From Sesamum alatum (Eukaryota; Streptophyta; Magnoliopsida; Lamiales; Pedaliaceae), in the NCBI GenBank assembly GCA_034509735.1, contig JACGWO010000006.1, forward strand, positions 3,859,001 through 3,923,000: DNA of 64,000 bases. Direction: 5' to 3'. The position numbers and the translations under genes were made by a program. Shown here in pieces: positions 18,152 through 48,211 of the stretch. The number at the start of each line of letters is the position of its first letter. The first letter of the stretch is position 1. The notes under the pieces are model-generated. The model ran no database searches, was not told where the DNA came from, and saw only the letters and a program-made list of their open reading frames with translations.

Positions 18152-18905
18152 TTGGCTGGCGACAGGCTGTCAGCAACAAAGTCCCACTCTCTCTCTCTCT
18201 CTCTTACAAGACTAGTCCTCCCTACCTTACAATGTTTTCTTCTCTCTCTTCTCTTCTCTTCTCTCACATACACAAAACTTCAAACTTCTCTCTGTTGTTT
18301 TTGCCTTCAATTTCTTCTCTCTCACTAGGGCATATTTGCTCGATTTCAGATTCCTCCTTTCAGCTTGCCGGATCGTTGATGCGCAACTCGTAAGATTTCT
18401 CCTGATCCCCTTTTTTCTATTTTTTTTGGAGTTTAATTTTGTTTTCATGGTGAATTTAGAGTGAGTGTTTTTGGTTTTGTATTTTGGTGATGAATGTGCG
18501 GATTTTGTGGAGGCTTCGGGGATTCTATTGTCTCCACTTGTTTTAGATGATTCTTCTTCTTTGTTGTTGTTGTTGTTGTTGTCGTTGTCATTTTGTTTAT
18601 TTCTTCTGGATGAGCTGTTCTGCATGTATGTTTGTTTGAGTTTTTACATGGCATTTGGTCTTGTTTTTCAATTAAAATGGAAGTTTGAATTATTATTGTG
18701 CTGGTTGAGTACTGTTTTGTGTGGTGAGTTTATTTTTTTACATGAATTGCTTGTATAAATTTTCCGGGAGGATGATTACTTGCTTTCATGCTTTATTTAT
18801 CATGAGTTTAAGTGAACTTTAAGCGAATGGGATTTAAAGTAGTTTGCAGTTTCAAAAATCCTTTGATATGGATGACTAATGGATTTCTGAAAATAATTGG
18901 ACTTT
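18152..18905 (+). promoter_or_regulatory. Promoter, leader exon and start of leader intron, homologous to the ISA2 leader
   Basis: The first exon of the seven-span gene ends at 18389 (CAACTC|GTAAGATTTC). From GACAGGCTGTCAG (about 18160) through CTCTCTGTTGTTTTTG, TTTCAGCTTGCCGGATC and the donor into the intron (TGGAGTTTAATT, GAATGTGCGGA, CATGGCATTTGGTC, GGATTTCTGAAAAT), the sequence aligns in the same order with the reverse complement of 47555-48211, the ISA2 leader. The exon has long CT tracts (about 18186-18205 and 18237-18265). Confidence 0.8.
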
Positions 18906-20349
18906 ATGATTTGGTCATTCCACAATTTAGAAATGTAGACCTATTGTTGAAGTAACTCGGAACCAGATAAGATATGCATTGGACACAAGTTCTAAGTCCC
19001 AAGAGGAATCTGAATTACGATTTAAAGGTCTTAAGTTGGCCATACAACAATGTGCAATAAACTTCACGACACGAGTGCTTTGTAATTTGATTGCTGTAGG
19101 CAAATTTTTTGGTATGGAAAGTTAATTTGGGACCATGGTCCATCGCTTACCAGTTGCGCACATCGTTACAGGGTTTGGTAAATCTCGATGAGGTTGTATA
19201 AAAACACAAATTGCTTTTATCTTGTCTTTTCTGCTTGATATGTACTTTTTAAAATTAAAAGGATGATTGTATCCGACAGTTGTCTTTCTCTACGTCAATG
19301 TTAGGTTGCCATGAGGATGTACATTGACCTACAATGTAAAAGGTTATTTAAGATGTTGGCTGTGTCGCTCCTGGAATTAATAAGAAAGCTTGGATGCTGA
19401 AAATATGTGTTTTTGAGAGATATTAATGTAATCTCGGAACTGCAATTTTGCAACGTGGGGGTTATCTTATGTGTGAATCTTGATTAGAACAATGCTAGTT
19501 GGAAAGGGGCTTGCTTCAGCATATGAGGTGTGTCCATCTGCATATAATCAAAATTTAATTGGTTTCCTTTTCAAGAACCATGCCACTTCTTTTGCTACTT
19601 TTTCTAGTTTTTTTCATGAAGTCATGCAATAAAAGTGAAGATTTCTACAAATTATGTTCGACCAACTTTTGGCTTTTCGTACCCAATTCCTCTGGACTGG
19701 TGTATGATTTTGCTCCAACGTAATTATTACCTTATTGTTATCCGCTCTGAAATCCAAACAACTGAGTCATTTAAGTAATTATGTTGCTGATGATAATGAT
19801 GGGAGCAACTCTCTTTTCTTACTTGATCGAATTTGCTAAAAGTCTTAACTGTGCTGAACTTGTGGTACATTCACAAAGAGTTCGTTTCAGATATGATTTG
19901 TTTTTCCTTTGTTTTATCACTAAGGACCTTGCTGTCTCTGGTTTGATGTGCACATTTGGCAATTTTGGGTTTCGCCATAATTGCTGAATTATGCAATTAG
20001 ATCTTCAAGCTCCTTTTCTTGCATTGTCTTTTTTTCCTTTCTTGATTGTCTCCATTTAATTTTGATCATAGTGAATAGTTCTGGCAGAATCTGTTGCGAC
20101 TGAGATTCTTTTCATGTCTGTGTGTGCTGCTTTATATCTCCAAAAATAGATCATTCTTGTCGCGGCATTTCTAGTGCGTTATATATGCAGGTATAGCACG
20201 CCATGTACACTGTAATACTAACACTAATTATGGATGGACCCTCTTATATCATTTCCAGTTTTGGCTTATTTTCCTTAAGCGGAGTAGTTAAGCTGTCTCT
20301 TCACTTTGGTTGAGAACTACTGATTTTGAGTTACTTGTTCATGTTGCAG
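18390..20349 (+). other. Leader intron of the seven-span gene
   Basis: Donor GT at 18390-18391, acceptor CAG at 20347-20349 (TTCATGTTGCAG|GTTGC). T-rich, typical of a plant leader intron, with a TTG microsatellite at about 18555-18580. No coding in the interior. Confidence 0.65.
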
Positions 20350-20594
20350 GTTGCTATTCCAAGGTTGAAAAGTTCAAAGCAATTCTGTTTCTCCATTCTT
20401 GCTTTTGCTTTGGGTGAATCTAATCAATCTCTCAAGTGGCCGTGTATGATTGTTTTGGAGTAAATAGGAGCCTCCGCTGATTTCTTTCGACTTTTCTCAG
20501 TTTGCTTGCACTCTCTGAGGAGTCCTTTACTCGGTGGAGGTTTTTCTTGTGTCCATGCTGGCGGAGAGCATGCGTGGATTCTTTGCTTTGGGTA

Positions 20595-21779
20595 ATGCCC
20601 CTGACGAGATTTGTTGCTGATGCACTTGATGTGGTGACAATTTGTCTTGTCGCTGTGTTTGTCCTTCTGGGTTTGTTTTGCATCGTACATTTGTTTTACT
20701 TCCGCAATGAGATCCGCAGTCAAGGTCTTGTCCAGCTTAGTTTTTTCAATGGTCCTTGGATTATCAGAATTACATACATCTTTTTCGCTGTCTGGTGGAG
20801 CATTGGGGAGATTATTCGGTTGAATCTATTGAGACGCAAAGGAAGAATCTTGAATGCCCTCAATTTGAAATGGCAGGAAAATGTTTGCAAATGCTACATT
20901 GTCTCCAACCTGGGATTTGCAGAACCATGCCTGTTTCTGACTCTCATTTTTCTTCTTCGTGCATCGTTGCAGAGGTCCGGAACTTTAAATCAGAATTGGA
21001 ACTCGAGAACAGCTGGTTTTGTTCTTCTTTTTTGCTTCCCAATGGTGATTCTTCAGCTTGTAATTATTTTAATCGCACCGAGGTATAAGGATAAACGCAT
21101 CCTGAAGCTGCCTTCTTATTTCATCAATGCGGCTACTTCTTCCAATACAAAAGATGATGATGTTGCCCTCTGCACTTACCCATTATTGAGTACCATCTTT
21201 CTTGGTCTTTTTGCTACTGTGCTAACTGCCTATATGTTCTGGCTAGGAAGGCGAATTCTTCACTTGGTCATCAATAAGGGTCTGCAAAAGAGAGTGTATA
21301 CATTAATCTTCTCTATTTCTGGTTTTCTCCCGTTACGAGTTCTTCTGCTTGGTTTGTCCGTCCTATCTAGGCCGGAGAAGGTTGTGTTTGATGCCATTGT
21401 ATTCTTGGCTTTTCTTTCCCTTTTATGCTGTGCCTGTGTGGGTATCTGCATGCTCGTCTACCTCCCGATTGCAGATTCTCTAGCTTTGAGGAATCTGCAT
21501 AAAGACACAGAAGCTACGACCGGTGATGAGTGCAACGACTCCGCATCACTAATTGCTAATCAGAGCCCTGTTGAAGGAAGTCCCGCACGAAACTCATCAG
21601 CTTCAACAAACCGCGGATCAATTTCTTTCCGGACAAAGGAAAAAGACAATACTTCTGGAGCAGGTTTCGTGGAGCTGAGCCTCTTCACACCGAGCCAGCA
21701 CTCTTCTCCACCCGGGTCGCCCAGACTTCTCGGCTGGCCGATGATCTCGCCCTCGCCCGCACAAGGTCAGGAACCCTAA
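20595..21779 (+). CDS. Plant-specific seven-span membrane protein of unknown function
   Basis: Single coding exon of 394 residues. The start MPLTRFVADAL fits the family; an upstream in-frame Met at 20502 would add 31 residues with no membrane or targeting feature and lies in the leader. Hydrophobic spans lie near residues 12-35, 55-77, 102-123, 140-161, 195-217, 232-257 and 262-290. A short conserved stretch (KWQENVCKCYIVSNLGFAEP) sits between spans 2 and 3. The last 95 residues are soluble, Ser/Pro-rich and probably cytosolic or disordered. I place it with the Arabidopsis At1g10660/At5g62960 group, from memory; these are uncharacterised, with a resemblance to TOM1/THH1-like or GPCR-like topologies. 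The 5' leader is spliced and shares its promoter-proximal sequence with ISA2. Confidence 0.87.
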   Translation: MPLTRFVADALDVVTICLVAVFVLLGLFCIVHLFYFRNEIRSQGLVQLSFFNGPWIIRITYIFFAVWWSIGEIIRLNLLRRKGRILNALNLKWQENVCKCYIVSNLGFAEPCLFLTLIFLLRASLQRSGTLNQNWNSRTAGFVLLFCFPMVILQLVIILIAPRYKDKRILKLPSYFINAATSSNTKDDDVALCTYPLLSTIFLGLFATVLTAYMFWLGRRILHLVINKGLQKRVYTLIFSISGFLPLRVLLLGLSVLSRPEKVVFDAIVFLAFLSLLCCACVGICMLVYLPIADSLALRNLHKDTEATTGDECNDSASLIANQSPVEGSPARNSSASTNRGSISFRTKEKDNTSGAGFVELSLFTPSQHSSPPGSPRLLGWPMISPSPAQGQEP

Positions 21780-22235
21780 ACCCTTCTCCTGATGATGAAA
21801 CCATTTTTGTGGTGGGAACTCACTGTTTGTATAGGAATTACTTAGCATTTTAATAAGGATTGCTAATTTTGTTTCTCTTTTTTCCCCCTTTTTTTGGGTA
21901 TTTGAGATATAGTTGGTTTGCTTGTTATCCACCTCTTTTTTTCTGGTGGCACTTTTTAATCTGTATCTCTTAAATTCAGCCTCTTTATGACAATTTTACA
22001 GCTGTGCTGACTATCAAGGCTGCTTTTATTTCAAAGAGTTTCTATGTGTATCTGTATATTTTTCCTTAAATGATTTCAGTATATTCACACAAGTGCCAGT
22101 GCACACCTAGGTAACGTACATTGCAGCTTAAATTAAGCAAGTACATGGCCAACCTGGCAAGGTAAAGTATAGGTAAATAACGGTTATTTTCGTGAGATTT
22201 GACATAATTATATATGCTTTTTGCCATTTGAAAAA

Positions 22236-22897
22236 GGGGTAAATACACTTTGTTTCTCTGAATTATCCTTGATGCAAAACTTACCCTCTAAACTATTAAA
22301 TGCAACATTTACCTCCTGGTTAAGTAAAATTACTCCTCATGTCTTGAATAATTATTTGATTCTCAATATATTTTATTATTTTGCACATTAAACCATCATT
22401 AAATTATTTTTTTTACTAAATAGAATTTTTAGTAAGTGAAGAATTTAAATTAAAAATGGTGTAATAAGTTAATAGATACACAACAAATATAATATCTCGG
22501 TAACTCATATATATTTTTGAAAAGAAATTGACAATGTATATGCATAACCAACATTTAAACACATTTAGGAAGAAAGATCAATAAACATTTTCTTTTCATT
22601 TTCTTAAAGAAATTATATTAAAATGGTAATAATTATTCTTTTCTAAAAAATTAAATAGTTAATAACTTAATTTTATGATCAAATTAATAAAATCTTTTTA
22701 CATAGTTTTTTTTATTGTATTCATTCATTACTTGATGTTGAGTCTATAAAATAGTTTAAATATATTGATAATAATATAACTAATCAAAGGTATGAGGGAT
22801 AATTTTGTCTTATCAGGGGGATAAGTGTTATATTTGTTAGTTTAGGAGATAAATATTACAGCAGGAATAGTTTAGGGGGGCAAAGTGTATTTAACGC
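22236..22897. mobile_element. Mutator-like MITE with perfect 9-bp target duplication
   Basis: TIRs GGGGTAAATACACTTTG and CAAAGTGTATTTAACGC. The flanks are both TTTGAAAAA (22227-22235 and 22898-22906). It is the same family as 26413-27386. Non-coding, AT-rich interior of about 600 bp. It interrupts a family C element. Confidence 0.85.
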
Positions 22898-23210
22898 TTT
22901 GAAAAATTACAAATGCTTCTCTCAAAGAAAAATATTTATATAACCTCTAAACGGTAAGGTGAAAATTATTATTTTATTTTTGCTGATTTTTTTTTTTTTG
23001 AAGAATGTAAAAAACATTGAGGGTGGGTAGTAAATGGGTATATTAGTTCATAAAAATATTTTAGAAAATTCTTAAAATATTATAAAATTATAATTTGTAA
23101 TTCAAAAGTGCATTTTTGTTAGTTCACATAAGAATTGGATTGAAACTTAACGAGAACTAACGGAATGAGCTCGTTGTTAGATGGACGTCAAAATTATGTG
23201 GTGAAAATTT

Positions 23211-24214
23211 GGCAACATTGCAAAATGAGTCCTGTATGTATGGGGGTGTGGCAAAATTGATCCTGTAACTATGTACTGGCAATTTTAGTTCTTTATGTTT
23301 AAAATTTGTAGCAATTTTAGTCATTCCAGCCGAAAGTGGTTGGAATTAACAAAACAAATTGGGGCTTAGGATTTCAGCATCCAAATAGACATCATTTGCA
23401 CAATCAGCATTATATGTGGATGCCAATGTGGTTTACTGCCCACCACCACTCACCACCATTGCCGGTCGTCAGAATTTTTTTCCAGTGAGTCTCCGACCGC
23501 GCACACCATCACTGAACTCACCGTTTGACGCTGATTCCAATCCCGCAACGCGTGTCTCAATCGGAGTTCAAACGCTCCCCCAATCGTCGATTACAAGCTT
23601 GCTCTAAAATTTAGATCTACTTTCTCTCTCTTCTTGATTCCCCGTCGTCCAGGCTACCCATCGTTCGAGACCACCACAAATGGACTCTCCATCTTCTGAT
23701 GAGTCAAGCCCATCCATTTTCGTCCATTATCTGGCCGGTTTCATTTTCACCATTTTTTAGGGCTGCCCCACCACTATTTTTCACCGTATCACCGCCGCCA
23801 ACGATCATCTTGTCGGCAGACTACCACCCCTGTGTTCACCTCCACGGGGCGCACATCCTTCCGACCAATTTCTTTCAGTGGCATCATTATCAAGGCCTCC
23901 TCATCGGTTGACGTTCTCCCATTTCTTTTTTGTGAGGATGTGGTGGGAAAGAGTGCCTTTTTCTTTTTTTTTTTTTCTCCCTTGCCCATTTGGCTTGCCC
24001 AACATCGACGTAGGATGCCATGTGTTTTAGTCGAGTCCAATTGGCAGGCAAAACCCTAGTCCCTAATTTATCCGATTAATTTTCGGCCATTTTTGATCGG
24101 AATGGCTGAAATTGCCACTAAACTAAAATTTATAAGACTAAAATTACCAATTCGATATTTACAGGACTAGCTTTGTCACTCTCTTATATACAGAACCAAT
24201 TTTGCAATTTTGCC
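23211..24214. mobile_element. TIR element with GC-richer insert
   Basis: GGCAACATTGCAAAATGAGT on the left is mirrored by CCAATTTTGCAATTTTGCC on the right, and the inverted match extends about 60 bp further in (CCTGTATGTA / TATATACAG). The centre (23430-24060) is GC-richer with C/T-rich stretches and short ORFs and could be captured host DNA; no family was recognised. It sits inside a family C element. No clean target duplication was seen. Confidence 0.6.
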
Positions 24215-24296
24215 TTATAAATTTTTTTTAAAAAAATAAATATTTATAATTATGTCAAATTTTAGAAGAGTGGATATAATTTATCCTAAAATGTAT

Positions 24297-26403: not shown

Positions 26404-26412
26404 TTTATTAAA

Positions 26413-27386: not shown

Positions 27387-27674
27387 TTTATTAAATTTAA
27401 TAAATTAATCAAAATAAATATCAAATAATTTAATTATTTTTTCTCTCAACATGGGGACTTGACCAGCCGCAGGGGTAGAAAAGGGATTTCGACACGAGAC
27501 GCCGCCTTAAAAGTCGTGTTCCTTTTACCGAGTCACAATCGCCTCCTCGAATAAATAAATAAATAAACGCCTCTGCAGTAATACGAGAGTTCTTTTTCAC
27601 TTCCGACGCCGAAAACAGAAAGCATTTCGAAACCCTAGCGCCCCAAGTAGTTTCTTCCTTTTGGCCGAGAGGAT

Positions 27675-29901: not shown

Positions 29902-30036
29902 GGGATAATTATATTTAAACCTAAGGATAGTTTGTGTAATGATGTTGATGTTTCTTGTGAGTATATGTGTAATTTTTAAAAGATAGGATGATTTGTACAA
30001 GTAAGGTATAAGATAGGGGATGGAAATATAATTATC
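29902..30036. mobile_element. Short family A MITE
   Basis: Begins GGGATAATTATATTTAAACC and ends GGAAATATAATTATCTC. Flanks TAAATATTT and TAACTATTT match at 8 of 9 positions. It lies about 430 bp downstream of the cytochrome c stop. Confidence 0.6.
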
Positions 30037-31230
30037 TCTAACTATTTATATTTGGTATGTGATTGGATAAAGACGGGTAAAAGGTTGGTGAACATCTTTG
30101 AACCTGAACCTAAAGGTTTAAATTAACAACGTAAAACTTAACCCAGAAACTACTTGGCTATTCCAATGGGGTATAGTTTAGAAAAAATGACCAATCACAT
30201 GACAAGTATATCATACTTACCCTTGATTAATTTGATTCGTCCAAATTCAATCCGAACAAGAATTTTCCTCTGCTCCCATGTACAACTGTGCTTTGCGTCT
30301 CTTTCACGTAGATGGTGCATCCATGTCAATAATTATTGCAGTTTGGGAAAGAATATAGCAACAATAAGCCTAACTAAAATACAAAATAAAGAAAAGAATC
30401 ACAATTCCTAGTGCTTGTATGGTTGTAAGCCATTTCAATTTTAAATTATAACTTGAATTACACACTTTTTCTCCTGATTTTTTTTTTAATAACAAAGCAA
30501 TCTACTTATACCTTTTTATTTTTTTTATGCTTTATAGGATCAAAATGAAGATAAATCCTTTCATGGGCTTATTTCCTTTTATATTTTTTTTCAAATAATA
30601 AGTGTACTGAATGATATACATTCTAATGTTCACAAGAAATGATGTCATTTGTGTACAAATTTTAAATAATTTGTACCAACATTGATGTCGAATTTTGTAA
30701 TGTTGAATGAGAGTCATTGTTATATTTATATATAAAATGATCTTAAATAATAATAATAATCCAATTACGGGTTTTAAAAAAATGAAATATTTTGAAAATC
30801 CCAAATTTAGTACTATGAGAATGTGCAATAAATCCAGTTATACAATTGATTAAAAAAGTCCTCCATGCTTTCAAACACAATTATTACAACCTAAATTACA
30901 TTCAATTTTAATAATTAATGCCACCCCATCCATGACCACAAAGGGAGAGTACAGATGCCTACGTGGCACAAACCCACTAGCGAGTACAACCAATACGCCG
31001 TAACCGCGACAAGAGTACACGCACGTATAATACATTTCCCCCGTGTAACTCGGCACCATTTTCAAACGTTTTTCTTTTGCTTTCTTTCGAACTAGAAGCA
31101 CGAGGAGTATCCATCTTCCTAGTATACTGTACTGCGGTGTACAAACCGATACATACACGTGTCCTGTATCTACATGCACCCAAAACGTTCAAGTGGGTGG
31201 CGTTAATGGTGGGGCTTTGGAGTTGGAGTA
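30037..31230. other. Intergenic region, including promoter of the DUF707 gene
   Basis: No gene recognised. GC content rises after about 30880; a TACGTGGCAC element (about 30959) and ACACGTGTCC (about 31154) contain ACGT cores of the G-box type, plausible in the DUF707 promoter. Confidence 0.4.
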
Positions 31231-31451
31231 AGCGGCGTGGTTGAAGAAGGGGAAAAAAGATACCTTTATTGCCTTAGTTCTGTTGGCTTTCTCTTTATTC
31301 TTTGCTTTTCTCAGGTGGGCTGTTCGACTTTCTTCTGATTAGTTCAAAAGTCCGAAGAAAAGGGGAAAAAAAGGTGGTTTTTTTGGTTTATCTGGTCGTC
31401 TCTGCGGCCAACCGTTCCTGGGATTTCGTTGGAGTTGAATTCTCATGCACC

Positions 31452-34400
31452 ATGAAGTCATACAATTGTGTAATTTTCTCTATCTTCTATTTTTCTTGTC
31501 CTCTCTCTCTCTCTCTGTCTCTCTGTTTGTGTGTGTTTATTTGCTTTCTTGCATGAATTTAACTTAAAATGTCTAAATGGGTATCTCCGGTTGTTGGGGT
31601 GGGGTTGGGGGAAGGGTTGCGCCTTTTGCTTGCTGAGAAACAGAAGCTAGAATTTATGCTGATTTTGTATGAGTTAATTTGATGTTAAATGTATCAGAAA
31701 CTTCCTTAATTTGTTATGAAAATTATTCTTTGCCATTGATGTGATGATGTTCTGAGTTTGGTTTAGTTAAGACTTTGTTATGTCTTCCCCTGTTAATACC
31801 TGATGAAGTTTTGGTAAGTCTGTTGCCGTTGGCTGATAGTCATACTCGTGGTCGTGGGCATCAAGTTCTGCAAATTAAATGATTCCAGCCTTTGCCTGCC
31901 CTTTGTAGAGAATGTCTGTTTGTTTTCTGTTTTCTCCATGTTTCTCTGTCATTCAGATGTTACTCTTAAATTGACGGTGGTCGCCGACATGGTTCCAGGT
32001 AGAATCTTGTTATAGATTCTTATTTATCCGTGAAACACTTTGGCCATTCGGGCACCATGATTCTTTTCAAATGGACTGGTTTTTATTAGGCCTTTGATTC
32101 ATCTTGGCAATGATTTCTGTCATTTTCAAGTTCATGTGGAAATTGCTAGTTGATGTTGATTTCATTGAATCTTATGTAAACTAGTTTTACGATTTTAGGC
32201 CAACAGGATGAATACTGATTAAATTTTCTGTTTTGTTTTTTGAGTAAATTGGAATGTTATCTCATACCATCAAATTGTGTTTCATTGTCAGGCTTTACCC
32301 TTATCAGATCCTAAAAGCAGGTCATGTCTCTGCAGCCTTTTCATAACGGTGTCCTTGATTTGTGGCGTTTACTTCATCGGGGGCGCATGGCTGAGGAAAG
32401 ATTTATTCAAGGTGTGTTCAGTGTTCATCCTAATTTTCCTTATTTTTCTGAATTGTTTAACTATATTCTTAATCACACACAAAAAGGTTGAGCACTCTTC
32501 GGTTGAATTTTTGAGTTTACTTGTGCATATAATTTTTAAACATAGTAATTACTACTTTTTTAATTTTGGGAGGAGGAAAGAGATCATTTTCATTTGAAAA
32601 TACAATTTACTATATTGAAATCTTCTAATCCATCTTCCACTCTTCTAATCCATTTTCTTTGTTTTTGTTATAGTGTGTCTGACTTGGAAGGTTATGAGAC
32701 ATTCCACATCAAATAGTCAATATATTTAAATGGCGAACTATGTCTGGACCGAACATATGCACAATTGTTTGATTGAGTAAATAAGCGCCTATTCTGTATA
32801 ACTTGAATGATCAGAAAAATAAAAAGATTGAGTTGTCTTTACCTTTCTGGCAGTGGAACAATACCTTAGTGGAGACTGTCGAATCTCTTAATTGCTTATT
32901 CTTTTTCCTACCATGATAAGAACAATACCTTAGTGGAAACAGTAAGTCTTTATACTGTAGCTTTTCAGAGTTTGTAGTATTGTTTTCTTGTTTCTTAGCT
33001 CCAGTCTTGCATTCTGCAACCTTCTGAGGCACATAAGATGCGACAGACTCAAGCGACATCCTGTTAACTTATTTGTTTCAGAGCGATCAAAAAACTTTTC
33101 TAAAGCATCACCTTGCATGTTTCTTGTGTTAAATTGGATTCTGCTAGTAATGCACAGCATATTGTCAATGCAGTTATCACCTGGATTTGGACTGAACACG
33201 ACACGGCGACATAGAGACTTGGATAGATGCGAGGTAGTGCATTATTTTCGTTGGCATCCAAGTATTTGACAATTGCAAGTTATAGTCAACTTTAGAAAAT
33301 GAAGTCTCTCATATTTTGCCGGGTGTAGGAAGGTGGAACCTTGCAGAACTATAAATGTTTAACAGAATACGGGAAGAAATCGGTTCTAGTAGAAAAATTG
33401 TATCCAAGTAAGGCCCTTGTTATAAATCCTGAAACAGTTTCTGAAATTTGACATAGAAAAGGGATTTGTAGTTACCTGAAGTTCAGATATGAATTTCCTA
33501 GACAATTCTTGCTCTAGGAATTAAGCATCCGAACGTGGGATCTGGAATGTTGATTCTCTCAAGAAAGATTGCTTTCTTGAATCGGACATGCCGTTTGTTT
33601 GAGGTTTTTAAGGATTCATCCATCATGAGCATTAGTGAAGTTAAAGAGTCATTTTTCATAGGCACCGTCCATATAAACTTATTATGCATGACGCGGAGAT
33701 CCTTCTATGAAGGTATACTCACTGGATATAAAAATCAACAATACCAGAGAGAATGCACACCTCGAAAAATGCAAAGTTTGTCGTTTCTTCTATTTTCGTC
33801 CTGTTTCTCTTGCATGATTATTCTAATCACTTCCTGATTCTAACTGAAAGACTTTGTTTTTCGTCTTAGGGGAAATGCAGGCCAATTGGTACTGAAGCTT
33901 TGCCTGAAGGCATTATTTCCAAAACGTCAAACTTGGAAATGCGCCCTTTGTGGGGATCTGTTTCAGAGGATGTATGTCTAAGTTACACTACAATTTTCCG
34001 TTAGATTGAAAGAGTCTATAATGATGGTTTGCAACACCTTATAAATAGTGTAAGAAAGTCATAAACTCAATGTAGGGGAATAAAATCAATATTGATGAGA
34101 TGATCTTTAGACGAACTTTGTTTTGCTTCCCATGTGGCAACTTTCTTTATTTTCTTCAGGTTGTCGTTCCTAATGGTCTCTATCGACTTATATAATTCTT
34201 CTTGTGATATTGTTTCTCGACTTTGTACTTCTTTCATTTACCATATATAGTTCATTTGCACAGAACAAGTCAAAGAATGCAATGGGTTTGTTGGCCATCT
34301 CGGCTGGGATAAGTCAAAAGAGATTGGTGAACGAAATAGTTAAGAAGGTGGTTTTTGTCTGTCCTTCTCTTTTTCATTGTTATTGAACTCCATCAGATGT

Positions 34401-37400
34401 TTCACTTCGCATGGGATATGCAAACATTGATATCTGGCGCTTGGATTCTTGCAGTTTCTTGGAGATGGTTTTGCTGTGATGCTTTTTCATTATGATGGAG
34501 TTGTGGATAAGTGGCGTGAATTGGAATGGAGTGACAGAGTCATTCATGTCTCCGCCACAAACCAAACCAAATGGTTTCCTTAGAGCTTCTCCTCAATTGA
34601 TCAAACTTTTCCGTTCATACAATATGTCCTAAATGAATCAAATTACCTCTTACATTCGTCTTGGAAATGGACTTTATTTCACGTGTCTGAAATCTTTGCT
34701 TAATGGAATAGGTGGTTTGCCAAACGTTTTCTACATCCGGATATCGTGGCGGAGTATGATTATATTTTTCTGTGGGATGAGGACCTCGGAGTCAAAAATT
34801 TCCATCCGGGACGGTATGAGTCTTGTCTTATTCTGGATTTTAGTTAGTTTGTTGAAGCGCTCATGAAACATACATTAACTTTTCTCTGCTGTATAAGCAT
34901 TCCTGTGAAATGTTAGGTTTCAAAGTTTCATCTTTTAAACATATGAGTAAGTTCGAGAAGAATACGAAGTTGATAGGCGAAGACATTGACGGCTATGAAT
35001 CCCAAGATATTAAGTGTATAATTGCACGCTTTAATGACGACTTCCTTTTCGTGAAGAATGTTTTTGTGAACTACGTTCTTGAAAGAATAGATCTGTTAAC
35101 TTCTATGGTGTTTGAGAGTTACAAAGTTATTTAGGAGACTCGATGGTAAATTGTTTTGCTTGCAACTAAATGTTACTTCAGAATTTTGTGGTAAAATTGT
35201 TCTTGTTTGACAGGTATCTATCTATTATCAAGGAAGAAGGCCTTGAAATTTCACAGCCTGCTCTCGATCCCCGTAAATCTGAAGTGCATCATCCCATCAC
35301 CGTACGCAGGTGGAGATCAAGGGTACACAGGTTAGTAAAATTGAGTCGCTATTTATTGGGTTGAAGCACGGAAATGGACGCACTTTATACTTTTGACAAA
35401 ATTGGAAACCTTCACATAACTGCAGATTTTAAATCATAAATATTCACAGATATCAGAAGTGTCGGATTTTAAATCATAAATATTCATAGATATCAGAAGT
35501 GTCTCATCATATGCCTGCAATAGTTGACGGCGAAAATGTTTACATGAATAACTATTGACGTCAGAGTTACGTCGGTCGACCTTCATGCATAGACTTGGTA
35601 ATATTTATGTAGACGTCTGACTCTATTAATATTCCATGAATAGGCGATTCTATAAGTTCAAAGGCGGTGGAAGGTGTGATGACAACAGTACATCTCCGCC
35701 CTGTGTTGGGTAAGCGTACAACTCTTATCACATTTCTCTATTTATTCGACTCACAATCTTCGGTCAAAAGTGCAGACCAAAAGGAAGAATGTACTCGTGT
35801 GGTGTTCACTTTTATTTGCTTAGAAGATTAATGCTTGTGGCTTTTAGATTAGAAGAGTCATGTATCACCTGCTGTAAATATAGCGCCCTTCTCCGTTTTT
35901 CTATAAGCTGAAAATATGCTTATGCACTAGCTGCAAATGTTTTGGTTAAACACTAGTATTTGCTAATGGTGTCCATTGAAATGCGTTTGCAGTTGGGTAG
36001 AAATGATGGCTCCTGTCTTCTCGAGAGCAGCCTGGCGATGTGCTTGGTACATGATCCAGGTATTCAATCTTTCTGCACGCTTCGTTTGTTGAATCATAAT
36101 TACACCGGTGCTCTTAACTTGTAGGATAACTGTGATTTTTATTCAAATATACGGGCAGAGAAACAAACAAACTACAGACTACTCGATACTTGATTGAGAT
36201 CAATCACTAAAGGCTAATTTGAGCTTGGGTCCTTAAACATAAGAAATCATGCTCGAAGATGTTTTTTGTTCAGCCAAACTTGAAAACTCGGCATGGGCTC
36301 GACTTGATTAGTGAAAAAATAGTAAATTATGTGTGTAAAGTCAAGGTACTCAAGCTCAGCTCGTATTCGACTCGATTAAAGTTTGTTTTAGCTCGATTGG
36401 ACTAACAATCACAACAAGCTATACTTTTTGAAATGACAAAGATTCAAAAAAGAGTAATGTGTTCAACGTGATTTGTTTCTACATCTGTTCATGTATTAAA
36501 TCACATGGAATGAAGTTTAAGATATAGGGATAATTACATTTACAGTTCCTGCCTATGGTCTGTTTACACTAAACAACCACCCCCACCTTTTGCGTAATTA
36601 TAGAAATCACCCCTGATAGGCAAAAGGCAGGGGTAGTTTGTGTAATGATGTTGACGATTATGGGTGGTGTATGTGTAAGTTTTCAAAAGGCAAGGGTGGT
36701 TTGTGTAAAAGATGTTCACCTTTCTGGTGAGTGTAAGTGTAATTATCCAAAAGGCATGGGTGGTTTGTGCAAATAGACCATAGGTCAGGGGTTGTAAATA
36801 TAATGATCCTAAAGATATATTTGAATGTTCTTGTTAGATTAGCTAATGCATCAACTGCCCAATTCATTAGTCGAGTTCTTTTTACTTGCCCGAACAAACA
36901 GTAACAGAGTACGAGTTGCTCAGATATAAAGGTTTTCCAAGTCTATGAAGGTTCCCTGTCTGCTTCCACGCGGCTACTATTGTAGTCCTTTTTCATTTCT
37001 GTAACCTCGTTATTCTTGTTATACTTCTCCACAAATTTGGAAACTAATCGTCATGGCCTCGACAGAATGACTTGATCCATGCTTGGGGCCTGGATATGAA
37101 GCTCGGATATTGTGCACAGGCAAGTTCACGACCAGCGTATGATCCTACTTGTCTAATGCCGTTTTCATGTAATAAAACTATGATCTTGATCACAGGGCGA
37201 TCGGATGGTCAAAGTTGGTGTGGTTGACGAGGAGTACATTGTTCATCTTGGTCTTCCTACACTTGGCGGCTTTCCGGATAAAAATAAAGTATGCATCTCC
37301 TATCCCTTGGTCTTTTCCAAGACACTTTGGTTATGGATTTACGAGGAATTTACAGAAACACTCCCTGAGGTTCTGGCATATTACGAAAAAGCTCTTCAAT

Positions 37401-38845: not shown

Positions 38846-38855
38846 GCTTCCTTAA

Positions 38856-40179: not shown

Positions 40180-40607
40180 GCTTCCTTAAAATACAGTAAG
40201 GAATTTATTGGGATAATTATGATTTCGGTTCTCAAATATAGTTTTTGGTTCTCAAATAAATTGAGGATGCAGTTTTTGTTGTCAAATTATTATTATTTTG
40301 ATAATTTTGGTCTTTTTGGTTAGTGGATTGTTAACTTCGAAAGAATTGTGCATATGTCATGCATGTGCGGCCAGTTTGGAAGGAAAAAAAACTATTATTT
40401 TCCTTCAATTTTGTAGTCTTTGTCAAGTTTTATTCTAAAACACCAATTTCCATCATTTTTCTTCATGTTTCTGACGGCACGAAATCTATAAAAAAATGCA
40501 AACGAAGCTTATATTTTGATATCATTTTAAGCTATTTTGAGAAATATAGTGTCAATATTGCAAATTATCCTAATTTATGGCACTAAAAATTGCAATTTTT
40601 TTGTTGG
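40180..40607. other. Intergenic DNA with a TIR-like left end
   Basis: At 40219 GGGATAATTATGATTTCGG looks like the left end of another TIR element of the family D type, but I could not find its right end. Otherwise AT-rich with no gene. Confidence 0.35.
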
Positions 40608-40986
40608 TAAAATTATATTTTTACTTTTGTAACTTTAGATCGCTAGCACTTTTTGTCCTATAACTTGCTTCGTTTATGCATTTAGTCCTTTTTTTTTGAC
40701 AAATTTAATCCAACACATCGAATTTGGATATTTTTTGACAAATTTAATCATATGTTGACAAATTTGATCATAATGACATACAATTATAAGTACAAAAAAA
40801 TGATATCAACTCGAGTGAGAATGAGAAAAAAATTATCAACACATGATTAAATTTGCCAAAAAAGCATCAAATGTGAGATGTTCAGGACTAAATTTATCAA
40901 AAAATTACTAAATATATAAATGAAGAAAGTTATGGGATCAAAAATGCTAACGACATGTAATTACAAGATCAAAAATATAATTTTAC
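40608..40986. mobile_element. MITE with about 100-bp TIRs, upstream of the PPR gene
   Basis: GTAAAATTATATTTTTACTT on the left is mirrored by GATCAAAAATATAATTTTAC on the right; the match continues inwards (GCTAGCACTTTTTGTCC / TCAAAAATGCTAACGA). Flanks TTTTTGTTG and TTTTTTATT match at about 7 of 9. It ends 191 bp before the PPR start codon. Confidence 0.65.
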
Positions 40987-41177
40987 TTTTTTATTTTTTT
41001 TTCTTTTTGTGGTAGAAAAACGCACACACAGTGAGAGTGTGAGGGTGAGTGGGTTATATGAGCAGAGTGTCTTCTCCAACAAATTAAGGGTTTAAGCTTT
41101 CTCCGGTCTCCAGCTAGGGTTTCTATATCTCTACATACACACATTCTATCTCTATCTCCACCACCACCACCACCACC

Positions 41178-43523
41178 ATGTCTCTCTGCCGCCTCCTCCT
41201 CCTCCGCTCCCTCCGCCGATACTCCTCCTCCTCCAATCCCTTCCCATTCCATTCCCCCTTTCCTGCCTCCCCCAATCAGGAGCCCCAATACCCTAACCCT
41301 CCCTCCGCCCCTAACCAATTCTATTCCCCGGTTTCTGCCGCCGGCGATGCCTCAAATTACCACTACAATCCTAACATCACGCCCCCTTCCGCTGAATCCT
41401 CAAATTATTATCACAACCCTCAATTCTCCAACTCCGGGGCTCCTAATCAGTTCTACTCTCCCGTTTCCTCCGCCAATACAGCCGCCGATGCATCAAATTA
41501 CCATAACAATCCTCACATCCCTGCCCCTTCCCCAGAATCTTCAAATTATTATCAGAACCCCCAGTTTTCAACCTCCGCCCCCACAAACCAGTCCCAGTTC
41601 CAAACTTCCAACACCACCAACTCCGCGGCCTCTAATCATTTCCAGTTCCCCATTTCCTCCACGACCAACAACGCCGCCTCCCCTGCTTCGGCGCCCTTTG
41701 TACCCCAACGGTCGTACGGATTCTCGTCCGCGGAGGAGGCTGCTGCCGAACGACGCCGCCGCAAGCGGAGACTGCGGATTGAGCCCCCGCTCTATGCCCT
41801 CCGGCCCAACCCGCAAACCCCTCCGCCCAACGCCAACAATCCTGACAAGCCCCGCCTCCCTGATTCCACCTCCGCTCTCGTGGGCCCCCGCCTCAACCTA
41901 CACAACCGTGTTCAATCCCTTATTCGCGCGGGAGACCTAGATTCCGCCTCCTATGTTGCTCGTCAGTCTGTATTCCAGTCCATACGGCCCACTGTCTTCA
42001 CTTGCAATGCCATAATTGCAGCAATGTATCGCGCCAAGCGATATGATGATGCTAAAGCCCTGTTCCAATACTTTTTCCGCCAGTTCAATATCATACCGAA
42101 CATTGTTTCATATAATAACCTCATTGTTTCTCACTGTGAGTCCAGTGAGGTAGAGGATGCACTGAAAGTTTATGAATACATTCTAGAGAATGCTCCCTAT
42201 AGCCCATCGGCTGTTACCTATCGCCACCTAACAAAGGGCCTGATTGATGCGGGACGCATTAATGATGCGGTGGATTTACTTCGTGAAATGTTGCACAAGG
42301 GTCACGGTGCTGATTCTTTGGTTTATAATAATGTGATTCTTGGTTTCTTGAATTTGGGCAATCTGGAGAAGGCTAATGAGTTGTTTGACGAGTTGAAGGA
42401 GCGCTGCACAGTTTATGATGGGGTAGTTAATGCAACATTCATGGATTGGTTTTTCAATCAGGGCAAACCAAAGGAGGCAATGGAGTCATACAGGGATTTG
42501 ATGGCTAGGAATTACAGGATGGTCCCTGCAACGCGAAATGTGTTGCTGGAGACATTGTTGAGGCATGGGAAGAAGAAAGAAGCATGGGATTTGTTCCACG
42601 ACATGTTGGACGATCACACACCACCCACTTTCCAGGCAGTGAATTCGGACACATTCAATATGATGGTCAATGAGTGCTTTAAGGAAGGGAAGGTTGAAGA
42701 AGCAATGGATGTTTTCAAGAGGGCTGGGAAAGGAGTCAAGTCAAAGCCGTTCCAGATGGACGTGGCTGGTTTTAACAATATGATGGCAAGGCTGTGTGAG
42801 CTTGAAATGATGGACGAAGCAGAGCAGTATTATAAGCAATTATGTGATAAATCATTATCCCCTGATGTTAATACGTATAGAACATTGATTGATGCCTATA
42901 TTAAGGTGGACAGGGTTGATAATATGCTGGAGAAGTATACAAAGATGGTTGAGGCAGGTTTGAGGGTTATCCCTCCTTATGCCAATAAGTGGTTTGGGTT
43001 CTTAATTGAGAAGGGCAAAGCTGCTGATTGTTTGCCCATTTTGTCAAAAATGGTTGATAGAGAACCAAAACCTGATGTGACGACTTATGATATTGTGATA
43101 AGGGGTCTAGTGAAGGAAGGCAATTTTGATGCCACTGCCAATTTGGTAAGAGATATGATGAACCAAGGTATTGGAACTACTGCTTCGCTTAAAGAATTTG
43201 TGTTGGAAGTTTTTGAGGGACTAGGGCGACGGGCAGAGATCGAGAATATTTTGAACAGGTTTCCAAGTCCTTATCCACCTCAGAGGCCTTTCCTAGGACA
43301 ACGAGGTCCACCAAGGGTAGTGAGGCCACCTGAAATGGTAGAACAGGGAGTAAGAAATCCTGCAATGCCATGGCAAACATCTTCTCCCCAACAGATGTCT
43401 TTTCCAAATCAATTTACACAACAAACCTATCAACCCCAGATGACAGAACATGTGGCACGTCCACATCCCATGCCGGAGCAGGAAGCAGAGTTTCCTCGCG
43501 TGGCTGGACAAAGTGCTTCTTAA
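41178..43523 (+). CDS. GRP23: GRP23-like pentatricopeptide repeat protein
   Basis: Intronless, 781 residues. MSLCRLLLLRSLRRYSSSS is a typical mitochondrial presequence. Residues about 20-170 are Asn/Pro/Ser-rich with a 44-residue internal duplication. A basic patch (RRRRKRRLRIE, about 188-198) precedes the PPR tract (about 255-697), which has around ten P-type repeats of 35 residues, for example PTVFTCNAIIAAMYRAKRYDDAKALFQ and PDVNTYRTLIDAYIKVDRVDNML. The C-terminal tail (about 698-781) is Pro/Gln-rich. This order and the sequence match Arabidopsis GRP23, needed for early embryogenesis and, in later work, linked to mitochondrial RNA editing, with a tail first reported to bind an RNA polymerase II subunit. 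There is no DYW domain. The leader has a CCA repeat right before the ATG (41158-41177). It is transcribed towards ISA2; the two genes converge. Confidence 0.92.
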   Translation: MSLCRLLLLRSLRRYSSSSNPFPFHSPFPASPNQEPQYPNPPSAPNQFYSPVSAAGDASNYHYNPNITPPSAESSNYYHNPQFSNSGAPNQFYSPVSSANTAADASNYHNNPHIPAPSPESSNYYQNPQFSTSAPTNQSQFQTSNTTNSAASNHFQFPISSTTNNAASPASAPFVPQRSYGFSSAEEAAAERRRRKRRLRIEPPLYALRPNPQTPPPNANNPDKPRLPDSTSALVGPRLNLHNRVQSLIRAGDLDSASYVARQSVFQSIRPTVFTCNAIIAAMYRAKRYDDAKALFQYFFRQFNIIPNIVSYNNLIVSHCESSEVEDALKVYEYILENAPYSPSAVTYRHLTKGLIDAGRINDAVDLLREMLHKGHGADSLVYNNVILGFLNLGNLEKANELFDELKERCTVYDGVVNATFMDWFFNQGKPKEAMESYRDLMARNYRMVPATRNVLLETLLRHGKKKEAWDLFHDMLDDHTPPTFQAVNSDTFNMMVNECFKEGKVEEAMDVFKRAGKGVKSKPFQMDVAGFNNMMARLCELEMMDEAEQYYKQLCDKSLSPDVNTYRTLIDAYIKVDRVDNMLEKYTKMVEAGLRVIPPYANKWFGFLIEKGKAADCLPILSKMVDREPKPDVTTYDIVIRGLVKEGNFDATANLVRDMMNQGIGTTASLKEFVLEVFEGLGRRAEIENILNRFPSPYPPQRPFLGQRGPPRVVRPPEMVEQGVRNPAMPWQTSSPQQMSFPNQFTQQTYQPQMTEHVARPHPMPEQEAEFPRVAGQSAS
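41311..41580 (+). repeat. In-frame tandem duplication in the PPR gene, period 132 bp
   Basis: Two copies (41311-41442 and from 41443) encode NQFYSPVSAAGDASNYHYNP and NQFYSPVSSANTAADASNYH, each followed by SSNYY and NPQFS. The second copy has gained a few codons. The duplication lies in the disordered N-terminal region. Confidence 0.85.
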
Positions 43524-44892
43524 CTTATAGGTGAATGTTTAGTTCAATTGGTCCGTTCTGGAGTATTTAAAGGTACTTATTAATGTTACAGCTTGAGCAA
43601 CTATTTTTTTGCTCGATAGAGACTGTGAATCAATATAAATATGATCAAGAGAAAATTTTGTAAGAGTTGTGGACCTTGTAGTCATACCTGTCGGAATTTG
43701 CAAAAACGATTCTTGCATTGGACATGAGCATTTACTATATTTGTAATTCGTTAGTATACTGGTTAAAGGTCTTATCACTGATAATGATTATGATTTTCTT
43801 TTTATGTTTCGTAGTCATTTTCTTTGCATTTAATTCCTTTTCAATATATAAGACTGTTAATATAATCTTGCAGGGCTAGACTCAATTTATATTTGGAATG
43901 GAGTAGATTAATGAGTTAGCAAGAATGACAAATAGGTGATTACTTTTCAAGTACCCTTGTTGATTTTATCTGAAATTGGAACTCAAATTCCATGAACTTG
44001 TATATTTCTATTATGCACTTTGGCAATCAGTAAGGCTTAGTGTACTTTCATTTAAAGCTACCTAGAGATTGCAAGTATGTGTTATTTCACTATTTGCTGC
44101 GTGAATACTGTGGATGATCCATTCCAAGTAAAATGTTAGCCTCAATGTATTCTTGCATGTCATTTTCAATTGGAAATTCGCAAGTTTATATGCGAATATT
44201 TGCACTAGTTCTTGACTGTGAAATCGTTGTTCTCGCTGTGCATCTATTGTATTCAGTTAGGGAGGTAAGTGGTGGGAACAATCTGTAGACCTCTTTCACT
44301 TCCAAACTTTTGTTCTTGAACCAAGTCTTGAGTTTCTTTCATTCAAACAAAATAGGTAGATCCTTGTCTTTTCATTGATTATTTCCTTCCAAACGGTGCA
44401 CAAATGTGTTGTTACTATTGTCTATCTTGCTATATGCTCTGATCTTTTTTCCCTTTTTCTGGTTATTTCTGGGTTTACCAGTCTTGATGGGGTGCTGCTA
44501 ATTTTTTACAAATATGTACAGGTCAAACATTGTTTCTCTTATATTAAGATTTCAAAGATGGAGTAGAAAGTGCTCGGGAAATGAAATGTTAACAAGGGTA
44601 GCTGATGGTATAGTTTCAACAAGGCATTTTGATAGTCATAGCCATGAATGCAGCCTCAAAAAATCATAAATGAAGATTTATCACACATATTGATTAATGT
44701 AAGAACAGACATGAAACCAAGTGTGAACAATAGAAGACTACTTTTTTATCTTCCGAAACTTATACTTTAACTCTCTATTTACCTAATCCAGATGTAAACA
44801 AATAGAGCAAATAGCACACTCTTTATTTGAGCATTAACGGACAAATGGGGACAAATATACAAACCCCTTGTAGAAAATTTTGCATGAGGCAA
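43524..44892. other. Convergent spacer between PPR gene and ISA2
   Basis: Tail-to-tail spacer of about 1.4 kb that holds both 3' UTRs. AT-rich. No element with defined ends recognised. Confidence 0.5.
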
Positions 44893-47463
44893 CTACAATT
44901 TTCGAGCTTCAAATAATATACAGCTATGAGACCTCATCTCATATGTTGCTAACCCGGGTTCAAGGGGAACGCCATCCACAGTGAAAAAACCAGGAAAAGG
45001 AAGTGCAGTATCGACCAGACGAACCCAAGTGGAATCGACTGCAGGTTGTGGGAGAGCAACTTTCTGTAAATGACTGGCACTGTTGAAGGCAACGAATAAA
45101 TCACCACCTGCATCTGGAGAACCAGATGTCGACTGGCTTGATTGTGCATCAGCCTTCAAAGTCATAGCTAGAAATTTGCACGACGGGTCATCCCACATTG
45201 GTGGGGTTTGATCAGTTCCATGCCATTCGATGTTATCTTCCTTTAAGAAGCTCCTCCTCTGGAGGATATCGCTTCGCCTTCTTCTCAACAAGCTCAAAAA
45301 TGAAATGAACTGTGTGATCTGAGTACCAAATCCTGATCTCAAAGCATTCCAATCCAAAGGTTTCCGGTCAGCGTATTCTTGGGAGCCTCCAGTGGATTGG
45401 CCACACTCGTCTCCCATGTTAAGGACGGGAACGCCCAAAGAGATAAACAAAATGAAGAGGTAATTGCGGATCTGCTTAAGTCGCCTCTCCAGCACAAGAG
45501 TTTTATTCGTCGGGCCCTCTTCCCCACAATTCCAACTCGATTCTGATTCGAAACTACTACTACTGAAGCTGACTAAGTCCACAAGAGTAAGTCCAACATT
45601 TCTTGTAATAAAATTGACAGAGAATGCTGGTCCTCGACCACCCAGAAAGAGATCCCCACTACCACAAAGCCGAGTTGCAAGGTTGCTTATAGGACCTTGA
45701 CCTCTCAAGAAGTTTCTCACGTCTACACAAAATTTTGCATTCATCTCTGCCCATCTCTTCCAGTGAGGGAACACTATTTCCTTTGTCTCCATGCCGCGTG
45801 GATCCCATGAGTCTGCTATTATCTTAGCTTTTGAAAGTACGGGATCAAAAGCAATAGCTTCAACCAGAGGAGGGCGTGAAAGAAACTCGCCATGGAACCC
45901 TCTCGTGAGATGAGATGCATTGATAAAACAGAATCCGTCAACATGAAACTCAATCACCCAATAACGGAGACTCTCTAAGATCATTTGTTGGACGATGGGG
46001 TAGTTGCAATTTAATGCATTTCTAGATTTCAAGTCGTCTCCTCCTTCAATATGATAATAAGAACTATCAATGTCTATTAGTGCGCCACCCTCACCTGTAT
46101 GGGTGAAAACAACTTCCAGTAAGACCTCGATTCCACTGGCATGCAACTTCTTTACCATCTCCTTCATGAATTTAGCAACAGTGGTTGGGTCGCCGGTAGG
46201 TCCACATGACCTTTCAGGAGAAAAGAAATGCAACGGAAAATAGGGTCCGTTTTCCTCATTGAAAGGGAAGATTGGCTCTAATAAGATGGCATTGACACCG
46301 AGATCTTTGAAATGATGCAATTTCTCAGAAATACCGGAGAAAGTTCCAGCAATATCACCAGGTAACTTACTAGACTTGTCTTTGGTGAAACCAGTAATGT
46401 TCAATCTATAAATAACTAAGTTCTCCATTGGTAAGCTAGGACGGAATTCACCACTCCAATCAAATGCAGGTTCCTTGTACAATTTTCCAAGGCATTTTCG
46501 TAGCAAACCCAACCCTAGGTCTTCAATAACCTTAGCATATGGATCCAACAGAACATGATGCCCTTTGTCGTCAGTAGCACTCCTGCAACGATAACCATAG
46601 CTCACAAAGGGCATAGAAGAATCTATTGATGCATGCCAAATATCACCTGAGCGATTGACATATGGATCCAGATCAATCTCTAAAGCAGGTTTCTCTACTG
46701 TTTCATCCGTATATAGACATAGAACAACACGTTCGGCACTGCGTGAGAAAAAGGCAAAGTTTATGGAACCATCATCTGAAAAAGAGATGCCCAGTGGGGA
46801 GGGATACCCTGAGCCAAAACCAACTGGCACAACAAAATTTGTTTTCCTTTGGCTTCTGATAGTTGAGATCTCTGAATTAGGACCTAATTTTGATTTTAAT
46901 AGAATTGAGACATAGAAAGGTGCTAAACTTTCCTCAAAATCCAACTCAACAGCTAACCTACCATCAGAATCCTTCACAAATGGGGTCTCGATGGTACTAT
47001 ATTTGCTATCAGCACTTGCTCGTTGAAAGTCCAACGGCATAAAACTTGTTGAATCAGCTCTAAACAGCCCCCAGATCATAACCAGCTCACCCTGTCCCTC
47101 ATAAAGCTGCAAGGATTCAACTTCAACATAAAGTCCATATTTGTTATTACGCTTCTTTTTAACGAGCGCTTTCAATTGACCACCAATTTCCATCCAAAAT
47201 CGATATGTAGCCATATTTTCTGACGCTTTCACAACAGAAACATCTGAATTGGCCACTGATTTCAATACGTGAGGCCCATAAGAAATCCTTTTTACATATT
47301 TCACCAGTCGTCCATTGAACATCGTTTGTTCAAGGTCCAAATTTTTAGGACCACTTACCACCCTTTTCCCATAATTGCCACAGTTGGCAGAAAACAACTT
47401 AGTTGATCCAACTATGACACTGCTTGGGCAATGCCACTGCATTAGACACGGTACTGGATGCAT
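44893..47463 (-). CDS. ISA2: Isoamylase 2, catalytically inactive starch-debranching subunit
   Basis: Intronless coding exon of 856 residues, as usual for ISA2. ISA2 forms a plastid complex with ISA1 that trims pre-amylopectin; ISA2 gives substrate binding and stability rather than catalysis. The N-terminal 60 or so residues have no acidic cluster and are plausible as a transit peptide. The CBM48-like domain is at about 225-330 (PSPLGISFSDDGSINFAFFSRSAERVVLCLY) and the GH13 barrel follows. The catalytic carboxylates are lost: DGFRFD becomes DGFCFI (nucleophile position Ile514), AEPWD becomes ADSWD (acid/base position Asp551), and HD becomes RN (Asn622). Region I also differs (EVVFTH, usual NH). 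These replacements are the family signature of ISA2 and argue for a functional, non-enzymatic subunit. The 5' leader is spliced and shared with another gene here. Confidence 0.96.
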   Translation of the reverse strand: MHPVPCLMQWHCPSSVIVGSTKLFSANCGNYGKRVVSGPKNLDLEQTMFNGRLVKYVKRISYGPHVLKSVANSDVSVVKASENMATYRFWMEIGGQLKALVKKKRNNKYGLYVEVESLQLYEGQGELVMIWGLFRADSTSFMPLDFQRASADSKYSTIETPFVKDSDGRLAVELDFEESLAPFYVSILLKSKLGPNSEISTIRSQRKTNFVVPVGFGSGYPSPLGISFSDDGSINFAFFSRSAERVVLCLYTDETVEKPALEIDLDPYVNRSGDIWHASIDSSMPFVSYGYRCRSATDDKGHHVLLDPYAKVIEDLGLGLLRKCLGKLYKEPAFDWSGEFRPSLPMENLVIYRLNITGFTKDKSSKLPGDIAGTFSGISEKLHHFKDLGVNAILLEPIFPFNEENGPYFPLHFFSPERSCGPTGDPTTVAKFMKEMVKKLHASGIEVLLEVVFTHTGEGGALIDIDSSYYHIEGGDDLKSRNALNCNYPIVQQMILESLRYWVIEFHVDGFCFINASHLTRGFHGEFLSRPPLVEAIAFDPVLSKAKIIADSWDPRGMETKEIVFPHWKRWAEMNAKFCVDVRNFLRGQGPISNLATRLCGSGDLFLGGRGPAFSVNFITRNVGLTLVDLVSFSSSSFESESSWNCGEEGPTNKTLVLERRLKQIRNYLFILFISLGVPVLNMGDECGQSTGGSQEYADRKPLDWNALRSGFGTQITQFISFLSLLRRRRSDILQRRSFLKEDNIEWHGTDQTPPMWDDPSCKFLAMTLKADAQSSQSTSGSPDAGGDLFVAFNSASHLQKVALPQPAVDSTWVRLVDTALPFPGFFTVDGVPLEPGLATYEMRSHSCILFEARKL

Positions 47464-47554
47464 GGCGTCTCAGGCGTATAGAAAATATTAGGTCACAAAT
47501 TCGGAGTTTGACCTGATCATATATCCTTGAGTCGTAATCTCTTCCTGCCGAGAA

Positions 47555-48211
47555 CAAGAACATTGGATAATTTTCAGAAATCTATCAGCCAACTATATCA
47601 ATAGTCTTAGAACTGCAAAAACTCTTTGCTTAATTTATGATAGATAAAGCACGTAATCAGTACAAGCTCTGTACAAGCAAGCATACCTTCGAGCGCATAA
47701 TTCATTCATTCTATCTAAATCCACCACGCAAAACAGCACAATAACAATTCGAAAATTTACATTAATTGAAAACAGGACCAAATGCCATGACAAAACTCAT
47801 AGAAACGAGACATGCATAACAGTTCTCCCACACACACAATAAAAAAAGCAGATGACATCAAAGAAAAAATTATCCAAAACAAGACACACAAAAGAAATCG
47901 CAAAAACCTCCAGAAAAACTCCGCACATTCTTCATCGAAATGCAAAACCAAAACTGCACACTCTAAAATTCCACCATAAAAAAGCAAAACAAATAGAATT
48001 AAACTCCAAAAAAAAAGGGATCTGGAGGAAACTCACGACTTGCGAACCAAGGATCCAGCAAGCTGAAGGCGAAGCCCAAAATCCAGCAAAGAACCCTAGC
48101 GAGAGAGATCAAATTGAAGCCAAAAACAACAGAGAGAAGTCGGTGAGAGGAGTGGGAGTGAAGTCTATTTAAGAGATAGAGGTGGGGGATTTTGTTCCTG
48201 ACATCCTGTCA
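47555..48211 (-). promoter_or_regulatory. ISA2 promoter-proximal region, leader exon and leader intron
   Basis: On the minus strand the leader exon ends at 48037 (CAAGTC|GTGAGTTTCC) and the intron probably ends with CTCGGCAG at 47545. A TATA-like TTAAATAGAC lies at about 48160-48170. The whole stretch is homologous, in the same order, to 18152-18905 in front of the seven-span gene. Confidence 0.75.

Follow-up and report, generated by a model that had tools for sequence, protein, structure and literature searches.

Results

The ISA2 and 7TM-A genes and their leaders

The window, that is, the whole stretch of Sesamum alatum DNA that was analysed (64,000 nucleotides), includes the two genes compared here, in opposite orientation (Table 1). 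The gene on the minus strand encodes a protein with the Pfam domains CBM_48, Alpha-amylase, and ISOA1-3_C. Its best PDB match is 9xvi_C (Isoamylase 2, chloroplastic; residues 83 to 853, E = 2.9e-301), and the best chain named isoamylase 1 is 9j60_A (E = 1e-92). By its higher similarity to isoamylase-2 than to isoamylase-1 chains, we identify this starch gene as isoamylase 2 (ISA2). There is one full copy of ISA2 in the 527.7 Mb of genome searched; the only other match spans 54 residues (42%, E = 1.9e-4). An exon of a Core-2/I-branching glycosyltransferase (Branch, E = 9.2e-62) lies at 53313 to 53984, about 5 kb upstream of ISA2. Rfam gave 0 matches over the whole window.

The gene on the plus strand is called 7TM-A here, after the label "seven-span" of an earlier note on this DNA, which was given without a membrane-span prediction. 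The family PF27754.1 is a precomputed assignment on the 120 homologues listed of 618, and the Pfam copy that we used for scanning gave no family. Labels among the listed relatives, as they stand in the sources, include "G-protein coupled receptors family" and "plasminogen activator inhibitor." The public model Salat_1637400 reads 19492 to 19527, within the leader intron, as an exon, which gives a 72-residue extension before MPLTRF. This extension is absent from the four relatives compared (P0002, P0003, P0005, and P0006), and the extra exon is probably a misannotation.

Table 1. Positions of the 7TM-A and ISA2 features within the window
Feature	Position	Strand	Remarks
AT-rich stretch upstream of 7TM-A	18035..18147	+	18035-18102 matches ISA2 upstream 48327-48261
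Promoter core of 7TM-A, 39 bp	18148..18186	+	Identical in 7TM-B (C77:18359661-18359699), diverged in ISA2
CT-rich promoter edge and putative leader exon 1 of 7TM-A	18187..18389	+	From homology; GT donor at 18390
Putative leader intron 1 of 7TM-A (GT..AG)	18390..20349	+	Only 18390-18896 common to ISA2
7TM-A coding exon	20595..21779	+	394 aa; 100% match to Salat_1637400 of Sesamum alatum; precomputed family PF27754
ISA2 coding sequence	44893..47463	-	856 aa, one open frame
ISA2 5' UTR in exon 2	47464..47544	-	81 nt before ATG; no similarity past 47563
Putative ISA2 leader intron (GT..AG), 492 nt	47545..48036	-	48036-47564 copied; last 19 nt, including acceptor, not common
ISA2 copy of promoter edge and leader exon 1	48037..48327	-	From homology; GT donor at 48036

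A homologous control region precedes non-homologous coding regions

The earlier note had claimed that the leaders of these two genes, at 18152 to 18905 (plus) and 47555 to 48211 (minus), are homologous in order and that the coding regions behind them are unrelated. Both claims held. The two ranges, the second taken as its reverse complement, aligned in the same order with a score of 365, compared with 29.3 ± 3.9 (maximum, 49) for 200 pairs of dinucleotide-preserving shuffles of the full ranges. Each piece also scored above all of its own 200 shuffles: the upstream edge (46 versus 16.0 ± 2.7; maximum, 30), the leader exon (112 versus 20.5 ± 3.2; maximum, 38), and the first and second parts of the intron (122 versus 29.7 ± 4.6, maximum 51, and 74 versus 21.8 ± 3.0, maximum 36). 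The leaders are CT-rich and AT-rich, a composition that might produce similarity by chance. However, a real score of 365 against a shuffle maximum of 49 rules out a chance or low-complexity match, and the donor and intron matches are collinear; we regard coincidence as having practically no probability.

The full homologous span is collinear from 18035 to 18896 (plus) in the 7TM-A leader and from 48327 to 47564 (minus) in the ISA2 leader. It includes an AT-rich upstream extension from 18035/48327, beyond the ranges first proposed (49 versus 24.8 ± 3.4; maximum, 37). The strongest common stretch is 18284 to 18389, and the GT donor is present in both copies. Over 647 aligned columns of a single pairwise alignment, the Kimura two-parameter distance (K2P) was 0.39. 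The homology ends at 18896/47564, leaving 19 nt between its edge and the start of ISA2 exon 2. Past this edge, 18897 to 20360 and 46900 to 47563 showed no similarity (22 versus 23.8 ± 2.4 for shuffles), and the 7TM-A intron would continue for about 1.45 kb, as judged from the GT and AG at its two ends.

An in-frame search of the window with the ISA2 and 7TM proteins returned only self matches, with next-best E values of 3.1 and 1.5. The Pfam scan found isoamylase domains in the ISA2 protein and nothing in the 7TM-A protein. A homologous control region thus stands before non-homologous coding regions. Neither self-comparison of the window nor the protein searches found a 7TM coding remnant beside ISA2, which suggests that the copy was partial. 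Whole-gene inverted duplication is therefore unsupported.

A third leader copy stands before the paralogue 7TM-B

Genome searches for further copies, which skip very common words and therefore give lower bounds on copy number, found one more leader. The ISA2 leader exon region (48040 to 48211) matched two places, both in the window. The query 18284 to 18720 gave six rows: 7TM-A, ISA2, C77:18359784-18360003, and three short rows on C85 and C86. These three fall within the TTG-rich stretch 18548 to 18604 and were discarded as simple repeat. The nearest paralogue of 7TM-A, 7TM-B (78% identical; a third, distant paralogue is 33% identical), is found on another contig, C77, where the matched leader sits about 2.2 kb ahead of the 7TM-B coding exon. 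Each of the copies found, at least three in all, stands before a 7TM gene or ISA2. The introns of 7TM-A and 7TM-B (A and B below) match again at 19950 to 20054 (41 versus 27.1 ± 2.6; maximum, 35; 100 shuffles). In the AT-rich upstream stretch, A and B do not match (24 versus 21.2 ± 2.5 for shuffles), and the comparison of ISA2 with B is borderline (32 versus 20.9 ± 3.0; maximum, 30).

The earlier note had also considered that both genes took up a common repeated leader. The third copy found, being the leader of a 7TM paralogue, speaks against this. An inverted pair at 48430 to 48520 and 49490 to 49580, with arms of about 90 bp and 1.15 kb from end to end, resembles a small DNA element; self-comparison of the window found no match to it near 7TM-A. 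Placed about 100 bp before the ISA2 cassette, the pair has the look of DNA-element ends, which could suggest that a mobile element or multicopy leader family seeded both 7TM-A and ISA2. However, it lies outside the cassette and does not bound it, and the searches, counting at least three copies with common words skipped, returned only A, ISA2, and B beyond simple repeat. We consider such seeding very improbable. A transposon-borne leader of the Pack-MULE or Helitron type was likewise not supported: the copies found, at least three, all precede a 7TM gene or ISA2, and no element ends were seen around the cassette.

The surroundings of 7TM-B are a paralogous block. C77:18324001-18404000 is collinear with the window through a protein-kinase exon and the next open reading frame (3.3 to 4.7 kb), the 7TM gene, and cytochrome c exons (27.6 to 29.5 kb); the remaining matches are scattered repeats. 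For the sugar transporter, PPR, ISA2, and core-2/I-branching genes, which make up the ISA2 side of the window, 180 kb of C77 offered no convincing counterpart. That comparison gave the leader matches, short AT-rich or low-scoring pieces, and one PPR stretch of 20% identity (E = 1.8e-5), which we take as another PPR gene. Collinearity breaks within 30000 to 36000, past the cytochrome c gene and short of the sugar transporter. Either loss or rearrangement may account for the break, with ISA2 lost from the C77 block or moved beside 7TM-A.

We built a protein tree of 29 rows. Of these, 28 were hand-picked among the 120 homologues listed (of 618) and one was 7TM-B; 7TM-A was entered without its first 71 residues. 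7TM-A falls in a clade with Paulownia_005035 (support 96/97) and 7TM-B in a weaker clade with Paulownia_002227 (87/79, below the tool's star). Because A and B pair with different Paulownia paralogues, the A/B duplication seems to predate the Sesamum-Paulownia split. The Sesamum radiatum paralogue P0006, expected beside 7TM-B, grouped with 7TM-A.

The ISA2 leader exon and intron nest with 7TM-A

To read the direction of copying, we compared the leader exon plus intron of the three copies (508 to 552 columns) under four MAFFT settings. With three leader sequences, the topology depends on a clock or an outgroup leader; here, a clock was assumed. Across the four alignments, K2P was 0.33 to 0.39 for A-ISA2, 0.50 to 0.67 for A-B, and 0.50 to 0.76 for B-ISA2. 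The A-ISA2 distance was smaller than the A-B distance in a bootstrap share of 1.000 in all four (500 replicates each). The leader exon alone is weaker than the intron, with shares of 0.87 to 0.90 in three alignments and 1.000 in one. With the genafpair setting, the distances were 0.326 (A-ISA2), 0.502 (A-B), and 0.504 (B-ISA2), which is what a clock would give for an ISA2 branch that left A later than the A/B split. In that one alignment, the A-B distance equals the A/B coding Ks (0.507).

The clock likelihood was higher for ((A,ISA2),B) than for ((A,B),ISA2), by 16.6, 17.7, 11.9, and 30.3 log units in the four alignments. Against free rates, a clock on ((A,ISA2),B) gave p values of 0.085, 0.099, 0.935, and 0.046, the last a marginal rejection, whereas a clock on ((A,B),ISA2) was rejected in every alignment (p about 1e-6 or lower). 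Under the assumed clock, then, the ISA2 leader exon and intron nest with 7TM-A. In one alignment, the indel runs past 18284 single out B 16 times, ISA2 13 times, and A 6 times, so that the longest branch is B. Because a third copy precedes 7TM-B and ISA2 is closer to A than B is, the leader belongs to the 7TM lineage. Most likely, then, part of 7TM-A was copied, inverted, to ISA2 at some time after A and B had duplicated.

The promoter core is conserved between the 7TM genes and not in ISA2

In the promoter block (18140 to 18283; 75 to 78 columns), the order of the distances is opposite to that of the exon and intron: 0.17 to 0.23 for A-B and 0.35 to 0.49 for A-ISA2. Taken alone, this block favors ((A,B),ISA2), with a margin of 5.7 to 6.9 log units. 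Its 39-bp core (18148 to 18186) is identical at 39 of 39 positions in A and B, whose introns are 61% identical; the chance of such identity is 5e-9 at one place and 3.5e-6 over 700 starts. In the core, ISA2 agrees with A in 28 of the 36 aligned positions, with a 3-nt gap besides; this rate does not differ from that of its intron (72%, p = 0.58). Most simply read, the core is under strong selection in the 7TM genes, whereas no selection was seen in ISA2, and we read the reversed grouping of the block as constraint in the 7TM genes.

The same grouping of A with B, ISA2 outside, would also be expected if the leader had originally been that of ISA2 and had been copied to the 7TM gene before the A/B duplication, with a later ISA2/7TM-A gene conversion that rejuvenated the exon and intron. 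Gene conversion between inverted copies in the window could mimic the nesting of ISA2 with 7TM-A, and an ISA2 intron that ends 19 nt past the homology edge suits an ISA2 origin as well. This is the best rival for the whole pattern, and yet we judge it improbable. It requires an extra conversion limited to exon and intron, as the ((A,B),ISA2) clock is otherwise rejected at p of about 1e-6 or lower, and selection alone can explain the 39/39 core. In addition, the longer Sesamum protein branch is that of A and not B, so a generally faster B is not indicated.

The earlier note had suggested that the shared leader could co-regulate a starch gene with a membrane protein. As the core is kept letter for letter in A and B but has drifted in ISA2, the sequence does not support this proposal, and strict ISA2/7TM co-regulation would not be expected. 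The drifted core also fits a cassette that is a decayed duplicate unused by ISA2, whose transcription would start elsewhere, for example in exon 2. This concerns the use of the cassette and overlaps with copying from 7TM-A. We hold it to be unlikely, because ISA2 retains the GT donor and has an AG immediately beyond the homology edge, 81 nt ahead of its ATG, and because the exon plus promoter edge has diverged less than the intron in the same pairwise alignment (K2P 0.31 versus 0.42, a small difference).

Discussion

A proposed capture of the 7TM-A control cassette by ISA2

The earlier note had proposed that a duplication moved a promoter and leader cassette in front of another gene. Our comparisons support this proposal and give it a likely direction: ISA2 probably captured its control cassette from its neighbor, with 7TM-A as donor and ISA2 as recipient. 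In this model, the pair 7TM-A/7TM-B would have formed first, before Sesamum and Paulownia separated. A piece of 7TM-A about 0.8 kb long (its upstream edge, leader exon, donor, and the first 0.5 kb or so of the intron) would then have been copied in inverted orientation about 29 kb away, most likely by local duplication during break repair. The copy would have joined 19 nt upstream of the first base after the acceptor, before the ISA2 coding exon, and replaced an older ISA2 promoter. In plants, a promoter, a donor, and the proximal part of an intron can act to drive expression and enhance it. ISA2 may thus be transcribed from the 7TM-type promoter in the cassette, with splicing from the borrowed donor to the ISA2-side acceptor giving a complete leader. 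Afterwards, the ISA2 copy would have diverged at about the rate of the intron, including the block conserved between the 7TM genes.

The clock fits place the capture at about 0.52 to 0.65 of the age of the A/B duplication (0.61, 0.60, 0.65, and 0.52 in the four alignments). If the A/B duplication is about 70 million years old, the capture would have occurred roughly 35 to 45 million years ago.

ISA2 acts together with ISA1 in starch synthesis, and Arabidopsis ISA2, of the same enzyme class, is activated by FHY3/FAR1, which bind CACGCGC (review PMC6000157). This motif is absent from both strands of 47560 to 49200 here. Its absence would fit a changed ISA2 promoter, though it does not demonstrate a change or a loss. 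Somewhat short of an even chance, in our estimate, is the fuller history in which ISA2 of the sesame lineage, a single-copy gene that takes part in forming starch granules, lost an ancestral light/FHY3-type promoter, ran for tens of millions of years on the borrowed inverted cassette, and then evolved its own regulation within it. Since ISA2 works with ISA1, a changed ISA2 promoter would bear on the timing and site of starch synthesis in this lineage of oilseeds.

Relation to known captures

Some organelle genes that moved to the nucleus copied the promoter, leader, or presequence of resident genes. As in those transfers, the donor here keeps its leader and the recipient gains a copy; unlike in them, ISA2 is an old nuclear gene, and only the noncoding part is common. 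In our judgement, a promoter capture can rarely be polarised with ease from a single genome. Here one genome holds the recipient and the donor together with an independent paralogue of the donor, which lets both direction and relative age be read from sequence.

At the tomato SUN locus, as outlined in PMC6762207, a Rider-mediated duplication landed in DEFL1 an estimated 200 to 500 years ago. There, as proposed for sesame, a duplication put a gene under the control region of an unrelated gene. However, a retrotransposon moved the gene at SUN, whereas the sesame control region appears to have been copied locally and inverted, with no carrier element found. The sesame event also appears old compared with the recent SUN event (A-ISA2 K2P, 0.33 to 0.39). 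The titles and abstract beginnings searched, mostly from outside subscription journals, hold nothing on this ISA2/7TM case. In our view it adds a case to a known phenomenon, promoter capture; the case is new and polarised, appears well resolved but not without precedent, and comes with an unusual recipient and a relative age.

The three leader copies also expose the 39-bp core, seemingly under strong constraint in the 7TM genes, as a concrete and testable element. By eye, this core holds an inverted repeat, GACAG-G-CTGTC.
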